Source: Bacteroidaceae bacterium (GTDB lineage Bacteria; Bacteroidota; Bacteroidia; Bacteroidales; Bacteroidaceae). Taken from it: 64,000 bases of DNA. How positions within the stretch are numbered: position 1 is the stretch's first letter; each line of letters begins with the position of its first letter. The position numbers were made by a program, and so were the translations under genes. The notes under the pieces were generated by a model. That model saw only the letters and a list, made by a program, of their open reading frames with translations, had not been told where the DNA came from and ran no database searches. The stretch covers positions 1 through 64,000 of the forward strand of contig JAKSLI010000006.1 of assembly GCA_024401305.1 (NCBI GenBank). The letters run 5' to 3'. Positions 15,569-23,784 of the stretch are shown here, one piece after another.

Positions 15569-15606
15569 GGCTAAGACTAAACACTCACTCTCTTGAACAA
15601 GTGAAC

Positions 15607-15640
15607 TGACACACAATTTGAAATTGAAATTGTAATAAGG
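15607..15640 (+). repeat. ACAATTT palindromic repeat, copy 1
   Basis: CACACAATTTGAAATTGAAA followed by TTGTAATAAGG; arms ACAATTT / AAATTGT around a GAAATTG core. Further copies: 18199-18231, 19628-19658, 23456-23482. Two of them flank the RAYT gene. Confidence 0.85.
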
Positions 15641-15670
15641 GGTTTCCGAAATGGTAACCCCTTTTCTTTT
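15637..15670 (+). terminator. Terminator after the GH51-GH43 operon
   Basis: AAGGGGTTTCC-gaaat-GGTAACCCC followed by TTTTCTTTT, about 70 bp after the GH43 stop. Confidence 0.75.
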
Positions 15671-15686
15671 GCTCACAAACACAAAA

Positions 15687-15772
15687 TGCGTAAAAATGAC
15701 GCATTATATCAAGAAAAGATTGTATTTGCGTCATTTTTACGCTAAAATATTTTGTTATGTCATTTTGACGCA
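15687..15772. promoter_or_regulatory. Three operator-like palindromes upstream of the Nudix regulator
   Basis: Site A 15687-15703 (TGCGTAAAAATGACGCA), site B 15727-15742 (TGCGTCATTTTTACGC, the reverse complement of A) and site C 15758-15772 (TGTCATTTTGACGCA). All share a TGnGTnA...TnACGCA-type palindrome. Site C lies between the -33 and -7 boxes, the expected position for repression by the adjacent regulator. No copy was seen upstream of the GH51 gene. Confidence 0.7.
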
Positions 15773-15781
15773 CTAACTTTG
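15751..15781 (+). promoter_or_regulatory. Promoter of the Nudix-VWA operon
   Basis: TTTG at 15751-15754 and TAACTTTG at 15774-15781 are 19 nt apart, an excellent match to the Bacteroidota consensus. It rules out the longer reading frame that starts at 15752 and supports the ATG at 15812. Confidence 0.8.
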
Positions 15782-15811
15782 CATCCAGAAAAGAACAAAA
15801 TATACACAAAG

Positions 15812-16543
15812 ATGTCTGAAATGTATTCATACAAGTACCCCCATCCAGCGGTGACGACCGACTGCGTAATCTTCGGATTCGATGGAAGTACAATCAACAT
15901 CCTGCTCGTGGAACGTGGCATAGAACCTTACAAAGGATCGTGGGCGCTGCCTGGCGGTTTTCTGAAAATGGACGAAACCGTAGAGGAAGGTGCGCTGCGA
16001 GAACTGCGTGAGGAGACTGGCGTAAGCAAGGTCTATCTGGAACAGTTTCATGTGTTCAGCGATGTAAAGCGCGATCCGCGCGAGCGTGTCTTGACCGTAG
16101 CCTTCCTCGCCTTGGTGAGAAAGAGCGACTATCTCGTCATTGCCGGCGACGATGCTGCCAATGCTCAATGGTTTGAGTGGGACGAACTGCCACCACTTGC
16201 CTTCGACCATTCGGATATCATCAAGTTGGCAAAGAAGAGTCTTCAGCAGAAACTCCGCATCCAGCCCATTGCCTTCAAGCTGCTTAACAATGTGTTCAGG
16301 ATGAGCGAGTTGCAGCGAATCTATGAGATTATCCACGAGACTACATACGACCGCCGCAACTTTGCCCGGAAGATGGTAGCATCGGGATTTGTCAATGAGG
16401 AGACTGTAGATAATGCGATGTGTTTCTCAGCAGCAGAAAAGCCTATACGAGGTAGGGCGGCAACACTATTCTCGTTTGACGAGGAGAAGTTCGAAAAGAC
16501 ACTTTCGTCGCAGGAGTGGCGAAAATTCCCGTTTGACTTCTAA
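15812..16543 (+). CDS. Nudix-domain transcriptional regulator (NrtR/AraR type)
   Basis: 243 residues. An N-terminal Nudix domain with the box [24 protein letters not shown] is followed by a winged-helix C-terminal domain ('[13 protein letters not shown]', '[15 protein letters not shown]'). This architecture is that of NrtR-family repressors, which sense ADP-ribose or NAD-related ligands; a Bacteroides member (AraR) controls arabinose use. The start was chosen because the promoter -7 box lies at 15774-15781. Three palindromes upstream suggest autoregulation. A VWA gene follows 15 bp later. The neighbourhood offers two readings: arabinose control (GH51/GH43 upstream) or ADP-ribose sensing (ADP-ribosylglycohydrolase downstream). 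Confidence 0.88.
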
Positions 16544-16558
16544 AAACAACAAAAAACT

Positions 16559-17272
16559 ATGGAAACTAAGAAAAACCAGATTTACAATCTTATTATTCTC
16601 GACGAAAGCGGTTCTATGGGCTGCGTGACTAACCAGACTATCTCAGGATGCAACGAAACACTCAACACAATCCGTTCTGCACAGCAGAAATATGCTGACA
16701 CTCAGGAGCACTTTGTAAGCATCTATGCTTTCCAAAGCGACGGTCGTCCTTCTCGCTATATCTTCAAGAATGTGCCTGTTGACGAAGTGAAGAACATCAC
16801 CGGCAAGGACTATGAGCCATGGGGATGCACTCCGCTGAACGATGCTGTGGGCATGACTCTCGCCGATCTGAAGGCTACAACGAAGTCCAAGGAGAACGCT
16901 ATCGGCAGCGTAACAATCATCACTGACGGCTACGAGAATGCATCAAAGGAATATACCATTGACAAGGTTGCCCAGATGATTGCGCAGCTGAAGGAACTCG
17001 GTTGGTCGTTCAACTTCATTGGCGCAAACATAGATGTCATCCGCACTGCGTCAGCATACAATATCGACAACACCCTGGAGTTCCAGCAGGACGAGGAAGG
17101 CACTCGCCAGATGTTCCACAAGGAGAGATCATCTCGCATGAAGTACTATGGCAGGGTTCAGGCTTGCATGGCAGCACCAGATTGTGTGGAAGAAGAGTCT
17201 GCCCCATCACTTAAGGAAAGACTGATAGCGGCTGCCAAAGGCTACTTCGACGATGATAAGGAGGAGGATTAA
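16559..17272 (+). CDS. von Willebrand factor A domain protein
   Basis: 237 residues, no signal peptide, so cytoplasmic. A single VWA domain: MIDAS motif DESGSMG from D15, a conserved Thr in 'GCTPLNDAV' and Asp in 'TIITDGYENAS'. The C-terminus is acidic (DDDKEED). Such small VWA proteins often act as metal-dependent scaffolds; the partner is unknown. It follows the Nudix regulator by 15 bp, so it is probably under the same control. Confidence 0.88.
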   Translation: METKKNQIYNLIILDESGSMGCVTNQTISGCNETLNTIRSAQQKYADTQEHFVSIYAFQSDGRPSRYIFKNVPVDEVKNITGKDYEPWGCTPLNDAVGMTLADLKATTKSKENAIGSVTIITDGYENASKEYTIDKVAQMIAQLKELGWSFNFIGANIDVIRTASAYNIDNTLEFQQDEEGTRQMFHKERSSRMKYYGRVQACMAAPDCVEEESAPSLKERLIAAAKGYFDDDKEED

Positions 17273-17274
17273 GC

Positions 17275-17315
17275 GAATTTGCACAAAGGGGTCTGACCCT
17301 TTTGTGCAAATTGAG
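17275..17315 (+). repeat. 35-bp GGGTCTGACCC hairpin, left copy (A)
   Basis: TTTGCACAAAGGGG-tctga-CCCTTTTGTGCAAA is a long hairpin. Its exact reverse complement occurs at 19662-19698, on the far side of the RAYT gene. Confidence 0.85.
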
Positions 17316-17338
17316 ACCATTAAATAGTTTAAGATATT

Positions 17339-18169
17339 ATGCTTGGAGCAATTATAGGAGATATCGTAGGGAGTCGTTGGGAGTTCAACAGAACTAACGA
17401 CTATAACTTCCCGCTGTTCTCAGAGAAGAACGGCTTTACAGACGATACCATCTGTACCATAGCAGTTGCGGATGCTTTGCTTAATCGTAGCGATGACTAT
17501 GGCAAGTTCATTCACGAATGGTGCCGCAAATATCCTAATCCGATGGGAGGTTACGGCGGCAGATTTTGCCAATGGGTAATGAGTGACAATTCACAGCCAT
17601 ATAACAGTTTCGGTAATGGCAGTGCTATGCGAGTGAGTCCGATAGCTTGGGCTCATCGCTATATTGGCGGTGCTGTTCATGAAGCAGAGTTGTCTGCTGC
17701 CTGTTCCCACAATCATCCCGAAGGGATAAAAGGTGCTCAAGCCGTTGTTGAGGCTATTCATTATGGCGATGAACTTCGTAGATTGGCAAAGGAAATCAAC
17801 AAGGAGACAATCACAGAAGTCATTCTTCCTATCGCAGAAAGATACGGCTATAACATAAATATTGACAAAGCCTCTGTGCAGAACAGATTTGACGAAACAT
17901 GCCAAGGCACAGTGCCAGTAGCTCTGTGGATAATAACAGAAAGCAACGGCTTTGAAGATGCCATCAGAAAAGCGGTCAGCCTCGGCGCAGACGCAGACAC
18001 TCTTGGCGCAATAGTCGGCAGCATAGCCGAAGCCATCTGGGGAGTGCCAGAGGACATCGCATCAGAGGCTATGCATTATCTTCCATCGGAAATGAAAGGT
18101 GTTGTACTCAGTTTCTACAGGAAATATCCCAATTCTTGTTCGTTCGTTTGTTCGTTCGTTCGCGAATAG
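17339..18169 (+). CDS. ADP-ribosylglycohydrolase (DraG/ARH-like)
   Basis: 276 residues. Family signatures: an N-terminal 'LGAIIGDIVGSRWEF', a metal-binding TDDT at 34-37 and a C-terminal 'SLGADADTLGAIVGSIAEAIWG' carrying the second metal-binding Asp pair. It removes ADP-ribose from modified targets or related nucleoside adducts. It lies between the hairpin copy A and the RAYT gene, 66 bp after the VWA gene. The final residues (SCSFVCSFVRE) are encoded by a TTCG-type tandem tract at 18137-18167, so the original C-terminus may have been replaced. Confidence 0.9.
   Translation: MLGAIIGDIVGSRWEFNRTNDYNFPLFSEKNGFTDDTICTIAVADALLNRSDDYGKFIHEWCRKYPNPMGGYGGRFCQWVMSDNSQPYNSFGNGSAMRVSPIAWAHRYIGGAVHEAELSAACSHNHPEGIKGAQAVVEAIHYGDELRRLAKEINKETITEVILPIAERYGYNINIDKASVQNRFDETCQGTVPVALWIITESNGFEDAIRKAVSLGADADTLGAIVGSIAEAIWGVPEDIASEAMHYLPSEMKGVVLSFYRKYPNSCSFVCSFVRE
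18137..18167 (+). repeat. TTCG/TTTG tandem tract at the 3' end of the ADP-ribosylglycohydrolase gene
   Basis: About seven TTCG/TTTG tetramers in a row, ending in the gene's stop codon. Slippage here would only alter the extreme C-terminus. Confidence 0.7.
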
Positions 18170-18198
18170 GGGGATGCTCCTCAACTCTTTACTTACTA

Positions 18199-18231
18199 AC
18201 ACACAATTTGAAAATGAAATTGTAATAAGGG
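18199..18231 (+). repeat. ACAATTT palindromic repeat, copy 2 (RAYT 3' side)
   Basis: ACACACAATTTGAAAATGAA then ATTGTAATAAGGG, 10 bp beyond the end of the RAYT gene. Same orientation as the copy on the other side at 19628-19658. Confidence 0.85.
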
Positions 18232-18241
18232 AATCGCTTGT

Positions 18242-19501
18242 TCATTTCCACCAATCATCATTCTTGCCGCAGATAACTCGTGCAAGTTCGTTCATGACCA
18301 TACACATCTCGCGACTTACCTTGACATCCTTCTCATAGCGGTAGTTCCAAGGGGTTATCTGGCAAAGTTTTCTCTCTGCAAGGGCATAGAACGACTTGCC
18401 TACGCCTTTGTACTTCTCAGCGATTCCGTTGTCGATAATCTCCACGAACGAGAGCTGCTCAGCTATAAGCAACTGCTTAATGTCGCGTTCCTTTTGTGAA
18501 ATAAAGGCAGAGACAATCACGAATCCATTCCTTGCAGCATTGATAACAGCCTCCTTCTGGACTTCAAAAAGATTAGCGTCTGCTCTATGGCAAACAAGCG
18601 GTAGCTTCTTCTCTGACGACAGTAACTCAACATTCCCGATATAGTCCAGGGCAATGCCCCTTTCGTCTGCATTCAGCCTTGCCTTTACAGCCTTTTGAGC
18701 CATGGCAAGTTTCTCTGTATTATATGAGAACGCGGCAGCTACGGCATTCATCACCCTGTCAAGAGTCCAATTCCTTGAATGCCTGTTGCGATGCTTTTGG
18801 AAGCACTCGTGCCTATAGCCTTGTATCAGCCTCTTTCGCGGATTGTTACGGATATACAGCCTCTTTATCTCGACTTCATCATCCGTTATGGCCTCCATGT
18901 CGTTGTAGCCACGAACGAAGAGGGCAGGACCACGGAAGGAACGCATGTGGAGGCGGTCTTGATGTTCTTCTATCAGAGCCTTGTGCTTCACTTCTATCTC
19001 CCTTCTTGTTTCATCGTCAATATTAGCACCAGCTTCTTCCAATTTGTGCTTAAGCACATCATCCAATTGCTTGCGCATTTCGCGCCATGGTATGCCAAGC
19101 GTGTCCCAATAGGCGTGCGTGCAGCCTATCATAAGGCCGTTTACGATGCGCCCAAGATGTCCTTTGTTTCCCGGCAATAAATGCAGAAGGGCGTGAATAT
19201 GCTCTGGCATTACCTGCAGCTCATCACAGATGCAATATTTGTAATAACGGTTTATGCTTCGCCATTCCTTCTCAACGGCTTTTCCTAACTGCGTAAGTTT
19301 ACATCTCGGAGCGTCCGTCGCTCCGTCTGCCGCATTGATATCCCCTTCGCAAATGCTTAGCACCGGCACTCCGTCCCTCGTGTTCAATGTCACATGAAAC
19401 CATCCCTCGTAATAGTTTACGTTGGGATCGCGTCTCATGGCGTCAGGAAGAGACGCTTCTTTCTTACGCATCATTGCTTTCTGTTCTGAAGTGTAAGGCA
19501 T
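18242..19501 (-). CDS. REP-associated tyrosine transposase (RAYT, IS200-like Y1 HUH) with C-terminal extension
   Basis: 419 residues. Residues about 25-230 resemble the Y1 transposase domain of the REP-associated type. The HUH motif is HIH at 101-103 in 'VMPEHIHALLHLLPG', and the likely catalytic Tyr is Y216 in LYIRNNPRKR. Residues about 285-390 form an extra domain ('LPLVCHRADANLFEVQKEA', 'NGFVIVSAFISQKERD') that looks like a Rossmann/DprA-like fold; this last point is inference. The gene is intact, with its own promoter, and is flanked on both sides by ACAATTT palindromes. RAYTs are known to be domesticated single-strand transposases linked to REP hairpins. Confidence 0.85.
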   Translation of the reverse strand: MPYTSEQKAMMRKKEASLPDAMRRDPNVNYYEGWFHVTLNTRDGVPVLSICEGDINAADGATDAPRCKLTQLGKAVEKEWRSINRYYKYCICDELQVMPEHIHALLHLLPGNKGHLGRIVNGLMIGCTHAYWDTLGIPWREMRKQLDDVLKHKLEEAGANIDDETRREIEVKHKALIEEHQDRLHMRSFRGPALFVRGYNDMEAITDDEVEIKRLYIRNNPRKRLIQGYRHECFQKHRNRHSRNWTLDRVMNAVAAAFSYNTEKLAMAQKAVKARLNADERGIALDYIGNVELLSSEKKLPLVCHRADANLFEVQKEAVINAARNGFVIVSAFISQKERDIKQLLIAEQLSFVEIIDNGIAEKYKGVGKSFYALAERKLCQITPWNYRYEKDVKVSREMCMVMNELARVICGKNDDWWK

Positions 19502-19561
19502 GTTTTAACGAATTTACAGAACGACTAGTCTTGAGGATTTTGATTGATAGATTGATGGATG

Positions 19562-19592
19562 CAAAATTACAAAATAAATCGGAAGCAACAAA
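19562..19592 (-). promoter_or_regulatory. Promoter of the RAYT gene
   Basis: On the minus strand TTTG (19592-19589) and TAATTTTG (19569-19562) are separated by 19 nt. The leader is about 60 nt. Confidence 0.7.
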
Positions 19593-19627
19593 ACATTCCT
19601 CCATTTTCTGTCGCAAATAGATAGTTT

Positions 19628-19658
19628 ACACACGATTTGAAATTGAAATCGTAATAAA
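19628..19658 (+). repeat. ACAATTT palindromic repeat, copy 3 (RAYT 5' side)
   Basis: ACACACGATTTGAAATTGAA then ATCGTAATAAA. Compensating changes (ACGATTT with AAATCGT) keep the stem paired, which supports selection on the hairpin. Confidence 0.85.
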
Positions 19659-19661
19659 GAA

Positions 19662-19698
19662 AATTGCACAAAAGGGTCAGACCCCTTTGTGCAAATTC
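19662..19698 (-). repeat. 35-bp GGGTCAGACCC hairpin, right copy (A')
   Basis: TTGCACAAAAGGGTCAGACC then CCTTTGTGCAAATTC, the exact reverse complement of the copy at 17275-17315 over 35 bp. Confidence 0.85.
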
Positions 19699-19724
19699 TT
19701 CTATGAACAAGAGAACCGTCCGTG

Positions 19725-20630
19725 CTATTTTTCATCTATTGGTTTTGTGTCAAAAGGCAAGCAGCCATAAGCTACATCATCTTCATTGACAAACAAATCT
19801 TGGCTGTATCCTTCTCCTAAAACCTTTAGGTCTGCAATATGGCGTCTCAGATTAGCTCTTACACTAACATCTTCCAGTTCTTCCCTTCGCGCTTTGCTCA
19901 TTTCGCAAAATTCTTCAGCCTGTTCAATTCCTGCAAACCTACGGTCACAAAGATTAGCAGCTATGCCAGTAGTAGAGCTACCGCTAAAAGGGTCAAGAAT
20001 CCAATCCCCTTTGTCCGTTGAAGCAAGTATTATGCGAGTCAGAACAGATAGAGGTTTCTGCGTAGGATGCTTGCCACATGACTTTTCCCAACGACCGATG
20101 GCAGGCAAACGCCAAACATCAGTCATCTGCTTGTTGTCGTTGAGTTTCTTCATCAGTTCATAGTTGTACTTATGAGCTACTTTCTTGCACTTCCTCGCCC
20201 AGATGATGAACTCAGTTGAGTATGTAAAGAAACGACAAGAGATATTTACAGGCGGATTGGTCTTCTGCCATGTGATTACATTCAGTATCTTGTAGCCAAG
20301 TTCAGTGAGGCAGTTAGCTACAGAAAAGATGTTATGATATGTTCCCGAAATCCAGATAGTGCCATTATCCTTCAGCTTGTCGCGACACAATCCGAGCCAC
20401 TCAATGTTGAAATCCTTCATTTCTTCAGGACTCTTTCCTTTGTCCCATTCGCCTTTGTCCACGCAAACCACCTTCCCGCTCTGTAGGCTTATGCCACCAT
20501 TGGAGAGAAAGTAAGGAGGGTCGGCAAATATCATGTCGAACTTGAAGCTAAAGTCTTTTAGCAACTGAAACGTATCTCCATGAGCAAGAAGGAAATCGTT
20601 ATTGGGAGATTTGTAATAGGTTTCTATCAT
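19725..20630 (-). CDS. dpnA: Second DNA methyltransferase of a DpnII-like system (DpnA-like)
   Basis: 301 residues, beta-class amino-methyltransferase. DPPY catalytic motif at 37-40 and SAM-binding DPFSGSSTTG at 213-222, in the permuted order typical of this class. 'KHPTQKPLSVLTRII' is also characteristic. In DpnII/LlaDCHI-like systems the second enzyme can methylate GATC on single-stranded DNA and protects incoming DNA. Its ATG overlaps the endonuclease stop by 4 bp (ATGA), so it is coupled to it. Confidence 0.9.
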   Translation of the reverse strand: MIETYYKSPNNDFLLAHGDTFQLLKDFSFKFDMIFADPPYFLSNGGISLQSGKVVCVDKGEWDKGKSPEEMKDFNIEWLGLCRDKLKDNGTIWISGTYHNIFSVANCLTELGYKILNVITWQKTNPPVNISCRFFTYSTEFIIWARKCKKVAHKYNYELMKKLNDNKQMTDVWRLPAIGRWEKSCGKHPTQKPLSVLTRIILASTDKGDWILDPFSGSSTTGIAANLCDRRFAGIEQAEEFCEMSKARREELEDVSVRANLRRHIADLKVLGEGYSQDLFVNEDDVAYGCLPFDTKPIDEK

Positions 20631-21460
20631 TTCATTTCTTGCTTTACTTCTTCAAGAAACTCAGGCAATGTCGTAAAATTGTACATACGAGGAATATCAT
20701 TGTAGGCTTCAGCTAGTTTATTCTTTGCGCTATTCCATCCTTCGCCATCAGTAATCCAGACGAATTCATATCCCTCAACGCCATTTACTATAGGAGCCAG
20801 TTCACGATATGCACGAGCAACCTCGTTAAGTTTTGAACCACCTCCACTATAGTAATTCAGCTCTATGAGATAAGTTGTTTGTTTTGTCTTTATGACAAAG
20901 TCAAAGCGCTTTTCATCTTCTCCAAGAACTGCCTTAATCTCAGGAAACTCACTTGAATAAACCTCCATACGATGGATTATGTCGTTTGTGTTTAGGATTC
21001 TATGAAGGAGAGTTTCTGTTATGTCGCCACTTCTGTTCTTTCGCGCATTAGTATCAAGACCAGTTTCAACGCCAAAAACATAATCTACTAAATCGTTCAC
21101 GTCTTTATTAGTGAACACTTCTGCAAGTCCTGTTTCTTCAAGGAACTTCATTACTCCATCAACGGAAGTAAACAACGAACTTACAAGATAAGCCTTACCA
21201 TCATTATCTATGAATTTCTTCCTATCCTTGCGTCTTGTTGCGATAAGAATGTCAAGAACATTAAAGGCCGATTTGTCCCTTACCCAAAGTGCTGTAACCG
21301 CTTCCCTTAAGTTTTCTTTGCCCAACAGGAAATTCAGCATATTTAGGCTAATGGCTATGTTGTTTACATTATTGCGTATCTTCTTGAAATCGGAATAAAA
21401 GTCAAGAGTGGCATTTGTCTCTGATAGTTGAGACATGAATTTATTGAAGTCCTTTTCCAT
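20627..21460 (-). CDS. dpnB: DpnII/MboI-family type II restriction endonuclease (GATC)
   Basis: 277 residues from the ATG at 21460. A longer start at 21496 exists, but the shorter one aligns better with remembered DpnII N-termini. Recognisable blocks are 'NDLVDYVFGVETGLDTNARKNRSGD' in the middle and a C-terminal core with 'RFDFVIK', 'TYLIELNYYSGGGSKLNE' and 'YEFVWITDGEGW'. The last block holds the nuclease active site (D...E-x-N/K type). Predicted to cut unmethylated GATC. It overlaps both neighbouring methyltransferase genes (20 bp upstream, 4 bp downstream), giving the order methylase-nuclease-methylase. Confidence 0.9.
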   Translation of the reverse strand: MEKDFNKFMSQLSETNATLDFYSDFKKIRNNVNNIAISLNMLNFLLGKENLREAVTALWVRDKSAFNVLDILIATRRKDRKKFIDNDGKAYLVSSLFTSVDGVMKFLEETGLAEVFTNKDVNDLVDYVFGVETGLDTNARKNRSGDITETLLHRILNTNDIIHRMEVYSSEFPEIKAVLGEDEKRFDFVIKTKQTTYLIELNYYSGGGSKLNEVARAYRELAPIVNGVEGYEFVWITDGEGWNSAKNKLAEAYNDIPRMYNFTTLPEFLEEVKQEMK

Positions 21461-22367
21461 TTTTGAAAGCTTTGGTTTCTTCGTAATTATGTACAAGTAT
21501 TTCAGTTAGTTTTCCTCTTTTCGTTGGATTCGCATTGATGCTTCTTGATGCCCAAACACGTTCTATTTGATAGTCTTTGTAAAGCAAGTCAAAGAAATTG
21601 TCTGCCTCGTTCTTTCCCTTGCAGTCAGAATTGCTTAGCATAAAATGGAAACCTGCTTCTTTGATTCTATCGCAATACTCCTTCAAGCGAATCTGAGCCT
21701 CATCATTGAAAGACTCTTTAGCATAGTCGTTGAAACTTGAAGTATCGCTCAAAGGGCGATAAGGTGGATCAAAATAGAAGAGCGTATTGCCTTGGGCATA
21801 TTGAAATGTATTTTCAAAATCACCAGTCAATATCTCTACTCGTTGAAGTAATTCGCTATCTTTGCGAATGGTTATTGGATCACAAATCAGAGGATTAGTG
21901 TATTTGCCGAAAGGAACATTGAAAAGACCTTTCTTGTTCACACGATAAAGACCATTGAAACAAGTACGATTCAGGAAGAAGAATTTTGTTGTGTTCTCAA
22001 TCGGTTCAAGATTCTTTTCGTTATATCGGTCACGAGCGGCAAGGAAGAAATCTTTGCGAGCTTCTTCTGTTCCAAGAGCATTGTAAACATTCTGAATATC
22101 CTGTAAAGATGATATTAGTTCTTCTGGATTGTCTCTAACCGTACGATAACATGTCGTCAAATCTGGATTAACATCATTAATTACCGCGTGATTGATATTC
22201 GGGTATCGTTGTAGCATATAGAAGAGCATAGCTCCACCGCCAACGAAAGGTTCAATGTAAGTTACATTATCCCAATTACCAAAGTCAGCTGGCAACTGTG
22301 CATCCAGTTGTTCTATGAGTTGCGACTTTCCCCCAACCCATTTGATAAAAGGTTTTGCTTTTGCCAT
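21441..22367 (-). CDS. dpnM: Dam-like adenine-N6 DNA methyltransferase (DpnM-like)
   Basis: 308 residues, alpha-class D12/Dam family. SAM-binding motif 'KPFIKWVGGKSQL' at 5-17 and 'YIEPFVGGGAMLF' at 37-49, family marker 'NRTCFNGLYRVN' at 133-144, and catalytic DPPY at 200-203. It should methylate the adenine of GATC and protect the host from the nuclease encoded next. First gene of the three-gene operon. A terminator-like hairpin with a T-run sits only about 20 nt before its ATG (22388-22421), suggesting control by attenuation. Confidence 0.93.
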   Translation of the reverse strand: MAKAKPFIKWVGGKSQLIEQLDAQLPADFGNWDNVTYIEPFVGGGAMLFYMLQRYPNINHAVINDVNPDLTTCYRTVRDNPEELISSLQDIQNVYNALGTEEARKDFFLAARDRYNEKNLEPIENTTKFFFLNRTCFNGLYRVNKKGLFNVPFGKYTNPLICDPITIRKDSELLQRVEILTGDFENTFQYAQGNTLFYFDPPYRPLSDTSSFNDYAKESFNDEAQIRLKEYCDRIKEAGFHFMLSNSDCKGKNEADNFFDLLYKDYQIERVWASRSINANPTKRGKLTEILVHNYEETKAFKNGKGLQ

Positions 22368-22387
22368 AGTAATCCTTCTTACATTAC

Positions 22388-22494
22388 GAAAAAGCCCTTG
22401 CCTATTGTTTCAGGTAAGGGCGTGGAAGAAGGATTGTAGTTAATCCATGGCTTAGCACTGCCAGCATCAGACAACAAAGAATCTGTCCACGCCC
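22388..22494 (-). promoter_or_regulatory. Terminator/antiterminator leader upstream of dpnM
   Basis: On the minus strand GCCCTTACCT-gaaacaat-AGGCAAGGGC-TTTTT (22421-22388) is an intrinsic terminator ending 20 nt before the dpnM ATG. A 9-bp stem, GGGCGTGGA (22494-22486) with TCCACGCCC (22426-22418), shares the GCCC of the terminator's 5' arm, so the two cannot form together. This is the layout of an attenuator or riboswitch expression platform. The sensed signal is unknown. Confidence 0.55.
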
Positions 22495-22668
22495 TATGTG
22501 AAGCGTGAACATCGTTGTCGTGACCGTACTGATGCTTATTTCTGAGGTGCTAATTCTGGGTTGTCAGTAACGTCAAGGATGTTCAAGGCTTATGTTCTTG
22601 TTCGGTCTTTGTCAATAAGTGCTGCCAATACCCTAATGCAGACATTACTTAGTTTAGGTTTAGCTCAT

Positions 22669-22812
22669 AAAAAACGTAGGTATTCATTCCGCTCATTCCT
22701 CGATTGAGGCCTTCCACAGCCTTGAGTTGAGAACTTGCAGAGCAATACCTACGTCGGATATACAAATACACCCATAGTGTGCATGAAAGTCCTTGTAAGA
22801 CTTTCTGCACAC
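22669..22812 (-). other. Structured, possibly noncoding RNA segment
   Basis: On the minus strand a hairpin GTGTGCAGAAAGTC / GACTTTCATGCACAC (22812-22777) is followed by CGTAGGTATT ... AATACCTACG (22753-22675), enclosing a small CCTCAATCGAGG hairpin, and then TTTTTT (22674-22669). This looks like a discrete terminated RNA. A 59-codon frame (22749-22928, starting MEKASLMLVF) overlaps the first hairpin, so a short coding function is an alternative. Family not recognised. Confidence 0.45.
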
Positions 22813-22972
22813 ACGGGATGCATGGATTGCATACCAATAGGCATCACTTTCAGCTTTGCTTCTGACAACTCTTTTGAATGTGGAAGTTTCAATCGATCAA
22901 AAACAAGCATCAATGACGCTTTTTCCATATGTCATATTCCTTTAGTTTTATGCCGTAAGGAAAAAATTCGGG

Positions 22973-23176
22973 CTATCGTTTTAGACGAACTTCTTCGTCT
23001 ATTTCGCACATACTAATTTTGTTTGCTATCATATAGTAAACAGACGACTTTTTGTATCCCATCGTCTTGTAAACCAAGTTATCATAATTATTAGCATACT
23101 TGAGAACTGTGTCTTCGGATAAATTTATTAGTTCTACCGTAGCAGTCTCATAATTCAAAATAGCAAGTTGCGCCAT
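22973..23176 (-). CDS. Small protein, unknown function
   Basis: 67 residues (MAQLAILNYETATVELINLS...). No domain recognised; the composition looks like a soluble protein with a helical second half. It has a good promoter about 115 bp upstream and lies ahead of the restriction-modification operon, in the same direction, so a control or accessory role is conceivable. It could also be an unrelated host gene. Confidence 0.5.
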   Translation of the reverse strand: MAQLAILNYETATVELINLSEDTVLKYANNYDNLVYKTMGYKKSSVYYMIANKISMCEIDEEVRLKR

Positions 23177-23455
23177 ATTCTTATTTTCGCTAGCAAAGTG
23201 GTAAATTATTCCATATAAAATAATTCCTCTTTTAGCATTTGTGTTTCAGATTTACTATTAGGTTTAAACCTATCAAGTATGATTAATCTGCTGCAAAAGT
23301 ACGAATATTCTTTTTACCAACAAAAAGATTTTGACATTATCTTTGTGTTTATGTTAAAATTAAACATGATCAACATGATCAGCAATTCTTAATGGCTATC
23401 ACATTACTAGCTCATGTCCAAAATGGACACAAGATCAGGAGAGGAACGGCAGAAC
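23177..23455. other. Intergenic segment with promoter and clustered GATC sites
   Basis: No gene. It holds the promoter below, a TGTCCAAAATGGACA palindrome (23415-23429), and three GATC sites within about 70 bp (around 23368, 23377 and 23433), two of them in a CATGATCA direct repeat. Confidence 0.5.
23294..23326 (-). promoter_or_regulatory. Promoter of the small gene ahead of the RM system
   Basis: On the minus strand TTTGTTGG and TACTTTTG (23301-23294) are spaced as expected for a Bacteroidota promoter. Confidence 0.65.
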
Positions 23456-23482
23456 TGACACACAATTTGAAATTGAAATCGT
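23456..23482 (+). repeat. ACAATTT palindromic repeat, copy 4
   Basis: GACACACAATTTGAAATTGA then AATCGT, in the same orientation as the RAYT-flanking copies. The arms ACAATTT / AAATCGT carry one change that weakens a pair. Confidence 0.8.
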
Positions 23483-23487
23483 GAGCA

Positions 23488-23784
23488 TTAGTGCTCCAAA
23501 ACTTCCTCGAGAATTGTTTCATCAGCGAAGGTTCTTTGATAGAAAATCGGATAACCGAGGGAGACGGGATGTTCTGCTTTGTTGATTCGCTTTACGCTGT
23601 CAAGGTCGGGTAAGCCGAAGTCAAAACTCCTGCCATAGAGTATAATCCTGCCGTTCTGATTGTCTATCTTCCACAATCCGCCGCCATGGCAAGTGGTGTG
23701 ACCTTTGGGCAACAGTTCCCTGTGAAGATAGACATTGCCAAACTTCAGCACGCCGTCGAGCGTTATGATGAATTTGTTATACAT
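23488..23784 (-). CDS. Small conserved-looking protein, unknown function
   Basis: 98 residues, no signal peptide. Mixed alpha/beta composition with 'GGGLWKIDNQNGRIILYGRSFDFGLPDLDSV'. It appears to be a real gene with normal codon use, but no family is recognised. It lies downstream of the aldolase, separated from it by a terminator, and ends 6 bp from an ACAATTT palindrome. Confidence 0.6.
   Translation of the reverse strand: MYNKFIITLDGVLKFGNVYLHRELLPKGHTTCHGGGLWKIDNQNGRIILYGRSFDFGLPDLDSVKRINKAEHPVSLGYPIFYQRTFADETILEEVLEH

Follow-up and report, generated by a model that had tools for sequence, protein, structure and literature searches.

The DNA analysed here (the window) is a stretch of 64,000 nucleotides from a gut bacterium of the Bacteroidaceae (GenBank assembly GCA_024401305.1, contig JAKSLI010000006.1, positions 1 to 64,000 of the forward strand), part of an assembly of 3.2 Mb in 115 contigs. 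Its positions 15605-23490 hold an intact gene for a repetitive extragenic palindrome (REP)-associated tyrosine transposase (RAYT), four copies of a palindrome termed P, all in one orientation, and a pair of copies of a second palindrome, A and A', together with NUDIX, VWA-like, ADP-ribosylglycohydrolase and DpnII-type genes. RAYTs are known from the processing of REP hairpins. An initial annotation had given the order as A, ADP-ribosylglycohydrolase, P, RAYT, P, A', with two P copies in the same orientation around the RAYT gene and further copies nearby. This order was confirmed; the flanking copies of P were located at 18195 and 19624 and the additional ones at 15605 and 23454. The central features are as follows.

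17275..17312, no strand: A palindrome (GGGTCTGACCC core; 17-bp stem on the + strand including one G.T pair)
17339..18169, + strand: ADP-ribosylglycohydrolase gene (PF03747, 8.5e-34)
18195..18231, + strand: P palindrome, 3' of the RAYT stop codon
18242..19501, - strand: RAYT-type transposase gene (419 aa, intact)
19193..19201, - strand: RAYT HUH motif, H101-x-H103 (coordinates worked out by hand)
18854..18856, - strand: candidate catalytic tyrosine of the RAYT, Y216, in YIRNNP (coordinates worked out by hand)
18245..18649, - strand: apparent DprA-like C-terminal domain of the RAYT (residues about 285-419)
19624..19660, + strand: P palindrome upstream of the RAYT gene (stem preserved by paired changes)
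19661..19698, no strand: A' palindrome, joined to the P before it as a P-A composite
15605..15641, + strand: P palindrome between a GH43-like gene and the NUDIX gene
23454..23490, + strand: P palindrome at the 3' end of a 98-aa gene (stem uncompensated)

The RAYT open reading frame (ORF) runs uninterrupted for 419 codons and encodes both the HUH motif and the candidate catalytic Tyr of Y1 transposases. Residues H101, H103 and Y216 are invariant in 38 aligned relatives, all of which match NF047646 (E at most 0.1) and 16 of which match Y1_Tnp. The window protein alone scored 18.8 bits against NCBIfam NF047646, below the cut-off of 80, and did not match any Pfam family. The source genome contains six RAYT loci, and the next match to the window RAYT is 56% identical. 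Searches of the genus covered 150 (or 120) genomes of the larger group, and where match lists were long the results refer to the matches listed; the RAYT family was present, at least in part, in 77 of the 150. The related assembly Horse_feces96 has five RAYT matches, including a fragment; the nearest match is 52% identical to the window RAYT and 64% identical to the RAYT on contig C91 of the source genome. A viral origin was also weighed: neither exact copies of P or A nor RAYT relatives were found in viral contigs, and no RAYT match was obtained in plasmids or phages. As a separate observation, the C34-type RAYT of the source genome (L174:14133-15194) and its 88% identical relative in Horse_feces96 (L131:422-1469) sit in different surroundings. 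Their DNA is similar from the start codon to about 80 bp beyond the stop codon, and the similarity ends in a small hairpin (CGTCAG..CTGACG in one, CGACAG..CTGTCG in the other) that is preserved by paired changes.

The two outer palindromes of the window are 38 nt long and 97% complementary. The description of A and A' as exact reverse complements in the initial annotation holds over 35 nt, with the correction that A is itself nearly palindromic, such that only two features make the pair inverted: the centre base and a single stem position, which reads G.T on one strand and A.C on the opposite strand. On one strand every stem position is paired; the opposite strand has a mismatch. The A hairpins are strong, with folding energies of -11.7 to -15.6 kcal/mol and z values of -4.9 to -7.6, and none of 200 shuffles folded as well. 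Searching the window alone for the A core with up to three mismatches gave two matches, a number reached by 16 of 100 shuffles and thus not above chance; we consider A a family because of its genome-wide count, not the window count. Across the genome, the 15-nt core was found at 24 places with at most two mismatches (control, 0), and a longer 23-nt form at 20 places. This form occurs in five of the 150 genus genomes, namely the source genome, G037 (three copies) and G018, G071 and G096 (one each), and the other 145 were without any match. Two named assemblies came up in an exact scan of genome contigs for A, with 11 stretches in Horse_feces96 and one in Horse_feces55; their whole-genome counts are 15 and 1, and the control in Horse_feces96 gave 0. 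The initial annotation had named a lack of enrichment of both palindromes in genomes that carry this RAYT as a ground for refuting it. This ground does not apply, A being enriched in the source genome. Against the annotation, Horse_feces96, with its 15 A copies as well as copies of P, has no closer RAYT than the 52% identical protein, the flanks of which lack both palindromes.

Gene context was determined for 31 A sites (16 of the 24 places in the source genome, 14 of the 15 in Horse_feces96 and the one in Horse_feces55), counting ORFs of at least 90 aa. Sixteen sites lie in tandem gene pairs, nine between convergent genes, one between divergent genes, four within a predicted ORF and one at an edge. 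A is thus outside predicted ORFs at 27 of the 31 sites, and at 20 a stop codon lies upstream at a distance of at most 38 bp. Its orientation in the tandem pairs is 9 versus 7, without bias. The stem asymmetry is exact at 18 of 20 places in the source genome and at 11 of 15 in Horse_feces96. TnpAREP is described as discriminating strands by stem irregularities of this kind (PMC8266576). A comparison of 15 A loci of the source genome with 27 loci, some of which overlap, from Horse_feces96 and Horse_feces55 showed one A site common to the source genome and Horse_feces96, with flanks 94% identical, and a second locus pair (68% identical) also aligned across an A. A has the features of a REP, being an imperfect palindrome of 20-40 bp that is extragenic, dispersed and downstream of genes, and REPs are similarly placed (PMC3733652). 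A is a REP-like family dispersed in the source species and its near relative Horse_feces96. The A core string was found in no publication on bacterial repeats, judged by title among the matches listed. Two further observations concern individual copies. At C48:23176 (L031:1470-1520) a partial second A arm precedes an A copy, as if half had been duplicated, and in G037 (L085:5189-6180) two A-like palindromes stand 958 bp apart with duplicated flanks near a RAYT, the first of them ending a short ORF.

The inner palindrome, P, is a 37-nt unit and is rarer than A. Its copies in the window are 81-95% identical to the first of them, at 15605, and the P pattern gave seven matches over both window strands compared with a mean of 0.00 in 100 shuffles. 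Genome-wide, up to three mismatches gave 11 matches at seven places (some matched on both strands), and a backwards control gave none. Six of the places have at most one mismatch, namely the four in the window, C49:24530 and C34:16425, the last about 1.2 kb upstream of another RAYT; the seventh has three. Four of the six good copies fall within 7.85 kb, which has a probability of about 5e-7 under uniform placement, a simple null that disregards gene layout. P flanks the RAYT gene in direct orientation, 12 bp past the stop codon and about 130 bp before the start codon, and is found at the edges of three modules (NUDIX-VWA-ADP-ribosylglycohydrolase, RAYT, and DpnII restriction-modification), where an insertion would also be least harmful. 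P forms weak hairpins, with energies of -3.3 to -4.4 kcal/mol and z values of -1.5 to -2.6, and 6-22 of 200 shuffles fold equally well. Compensating changes (ACGATTT/AAATCGT), already pointed out in the initial annotation, preserve the stem of the copy at 19624; the copy at 23454 carries the 3' change alone, folds otherwise (-2.0 kcal/mol, z -0.02) and has lost the stem. P was absent, forward or reverse, from nine other genus genomes including carriers of the nearest RAYT relatives. In Horse_feces96 it was found once exactly, once with two mismatches and twice with three. At L172:6079-6290 that genome also contains a pair of degraded P-like copies, oppositely oriented and separated by about 175 bp. 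At 23454-23500, the region of the 98-aa gene ceases to resemble Horse_feces96 beside the last P, which places this copy at or near a rearrangement joint.

The two families meet physically as well. The same spacer joins P to A at 19624-19698 and at C49:24530-24588, and no RAYT match was found on contig C49. A degraded P-A composite is present in Horse_feces96 (C14:53243). A third candidate, on contig C67 of that assembly (85% match), was rejected as A together with AT-rich sequence. The composite recalls the mosaic BIMEs (bacterial interspersed mosaic elements) of E. coli (PMC8266576).

A new element of the analysis, less expected than the palindromes, is the C-terminal tail of the RAYT family. 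HHalign aligned 102 columns of the tail with a profile of eight DprA sequences (probability 69%, E 4.4e-5); the reversed tail gave an E value of 0.096, the N-terminal half 0.34 and VWA against DprA 0.092. The best of 40 column shuffles reached 26.2 bits, versus 38.7 bits for the real tail. The family therefore appears, from profile comparison, to have a DprA-like C-terminal domain, which suggests that the tail would bind the single strand or pass it to RecA. Among the literature matches listed, none described by title a DprA fusion with a Y1 transposase, an HUH protein or a REP-associated protein, and the word DprA does not occur in PMC6006769.

On balance we lean towards an explanation in which an intact, single-copy RAYT gene is the meeting point of two small families of extragenic palindromes, with P nearer to being its substrate and A dispersed earlier. 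By analogy with other TnpAREP proteins, the RAYT is most likely an HUH/Y1 nuclease acting on single-stranded hairpins, and it would cut hairpins of one strand when the DNA is single-stranded; TnpAREP cuts single-stranded REPs strand-specifically, aided by stem irregularities (PMC8266576). The candidate substrate would be P by position and A by structure, and P is probably the better candidate of the two. A may have been dispersed earlier by one of the RAYTs common to both species. A and A' would then be ordinary A copies, one within a VWA-ADP-ribosylglycohydrolase gene pair and one fused to P in a BIME-like composite. The DprA-like tail could serve to hold the strand or to load RecA.

Several results weigh against this explanation, and against the autonomous RAYT-REP unit of the initial annotation, of which the intact HUH/Y1 protein, the P on each side and the copies elsewhere were borne out. 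The flank scan took in 15 RAYT loci in addition to the window (Horse_feces96 C7 offers about 420 bases on one of its sides, and Horse_feces96 C54 and G021 are fragments). Among the six RAYT loci of the source genome, A or P lies beside the gene at the window locus only. The RAYTs of the same subfamily (C91, Horse_feces96 C1, G079 and G110) do not have A or P in their flanks, and the pairing of P with RAYT thus depends on a single locus; the Horse_feces96 RAYT matches likewise had no adjoining A or P in the stretches scanned. Chance alone could put one of some 20 A copies next to one of the six RAYT loci, and the presence in G037 of two A-like copies 1-2 kb from a RAYT of a different type fits A having another partner. 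The link between the window RAYT and A is weak. The P hairpins scarcely beat their shuffles, and the local dispersal of P proposed in the initial annotation is real as clustering but unaccounted for by simple REP scatter. The evidence for the DprA-like tail is moderate: a PDB profile search with the RAYT family returned DprA (0.12) beside ribosomal protein S3 (0.2), alignment against E. coli Smf alone gave a probability of 0.7% and was out of register, and Pfam DprA was unmatched in all 38 family members. We also weighed A as the REP of the C85-type RAYT. This type occurs in the source genome, Horse_feces96 (73% identical) and G037, all three of which carry A-type copies, and also, at 56-59% identity, in G040, G057 and G067, which are without A; neither the C85 locus nor the C13 locus of Horse_feces96 has A nearby.

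The initial annotation had further suggested that the outer hairpins mark a larger mobile block carrying the ADP-ribosylglycohydrolase gene. In its present form this would make A and A' the ends of a TIRtron-like unit that carries the RAYT and ADP-ribosylglycohydrolase genes, consistent with their exact inversion over 35 nt and with published TIRYT genes that have inverted repeats on both sides, in some cases self-complementary and in some cases belonging to repeat families (PMC3733652). We regard this as unlikely and rejected it as the main explanation. VWA relatives adjoin ADP-ribosylglycohydrolase in two of 24 loci (L201 and L209; genomes G004 and G110) and a NUDIX match in three (L188, L189 and L209), all in genomes without A. 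Since the VWA-ADP-ribosylglycohydrolase pair is known without A, A seems to have entered a gene pair and not to mark a block edge, although the examples number only two. At C39:83690/85211 a further inverted pair of A copies encloses an ordinary dipeptidase gene, A' is part of a P-A composite, and none of the 15 A copies of Horse_feces96 lies beside a RAYT match. A copy of the block was found neither in Horse_feces96, where its flanking and inner genes are scattered over several contigs, nor, at the DNA level, among the matches listed from the 150 genus genomes. A and A' probably do not bound a mobile block.

Moving the boundary inward, P-RAYT-P could be a self-contained IS200/IS605-like unit with P as its left- and right-end hairpins and the other P copies as relics of earlier hops. 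The two P copies share an orientation, lie outside the gene, recur elsewhere at low copy and, at 19624, keep their stem through paired changes. Against such a unit, IS200 elements occur as multiple, nearly identical copies (PMC6006769), and the RAYT gene has no second copy in the genome; its subfamily relatives are without P, and a clean empty site was not found in Horse_feces96, where the 98-aa gene has other sequence beyond it. We consider this account doubtful, and the same can be said of A and P as host-used elements (mRNA 3'-end hairpins, terminators or protein-binding sites) that stand beside the RAYT by coincidence. The strong folding of A directly after stop codons and the five of six RAYT loci without an adjoining A suit a host role, but the stem asymmetry common to the copies together with the lack of orientation bias, on which the RNA terminator reading of A was weighed, suits a DNA element better, and the confinement of A to the source species and a near relative among the genomes searched suits spread by copying. 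Finally, because P stands in one orientation at each junction of the three modules, a RAYT with a DprA-like arm might target P, cut its hairpins, hand the strand to RecA and insert or swap P-bounded modules, the stretch having been assembled in this way; we regard this as very improbable.

The other features of the locus are listed here.

15752-16543: NUDIX gene with an NrtR-type winged helix
16559..17272, + strand: VWA-like gene, 5' of A
19560..19571, - strand: TAATTTTG box, putative promoter element between the upstream P and the RAYT start
19725..22367, - strand: DpnII-type restriction-modification genes (PF01555, PF04556, PF02086) between two P copies

The TAATTTTG box fits the -7 promoter consensus of Bacteroidota. 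A perfect 16-bp inverted repeat (GCGTAAAAATGACGCA) with a 23-nt loop, at 15688-15742 and thus upstream of the NUDIX/NrtR-like gene, is probably the operator of this gene. Horse_feces96 has a DpnII-type set at a different locus (L232:4341-9369) with two additional genes between the endonuclease and one methylase; compared with the window set, the methylase DNA is 82-90% identical and the endonuclease 66%.

Like the described REPtron/TnpAREP systems, the locus combines HUH and tyrosine residues, a low (single) gene copy number, palindromes beside the gene with mostly extragenic copies elsewhere, and, for A, a strand-asymmetric stem (PMC6006769, PMC8266576). In contrast to these systems, inspection by eye of the listed A and P copies showed no GT[AG]G tetranucleotide at the hairpin foot, the copies number about 20 instead of hundreds, and P is direct rather than inverted. 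The protein is also unusual, with 419 aa, a DprA-like domain and an H103-Y216 distance of 113, compared with median lengths of 148-325 aa and median HUH-Y distances of up to 110 in the published TnpA subclasses (PMC6006769). Subclass 2.6 of TnpAY1, which also is without GT[AG]G, resembles the window in its phylum (Bacteroidetes), in its HUH-Y core and in having weak, atypical hairpins close to the gene that recur elsewhere; it differs in its median length of 179 aa, its HUH-Y spacing of 82 and the absence of the extra C-terminal domain (PMC6006769). TIRYT/TIRtron elements (Di Nocera 2013, PMC3733652) share a RAYT-like gene bracketed by inverted, partly self-complementary members of a repeat family, and most A strands match seven of the eight letters of GGGGWSAS; here, however, the outer repeat is separated from the RAYT by another gene and P, A mostly occurs without any RAYT, and RAYT genes of the same subfamily occur without A. 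As in IS200/IS605, a Y1 gene is flanked by two hairpins that share an orientation, but the RAYT is single copy, without an identical counterpart in the genome, no tnpB was noticed, and its tyrosine motif is YIRNNP rather than Y---Q. The 102 aligned columns of the tail correspond to the Rossmann core of DprA/Smf; unlike DprA/Smf, the tail is fused to an HUH domain and has no Pfam DprA match.

Little literature on REPs was found for this bacterial group, in which the A family represents a small, recently spread REP set. The branch of RAYTs with a DprA-like tail in Bacteroidales, if true, would tie single-strand cutting to a protein that loads RecA on single strands.

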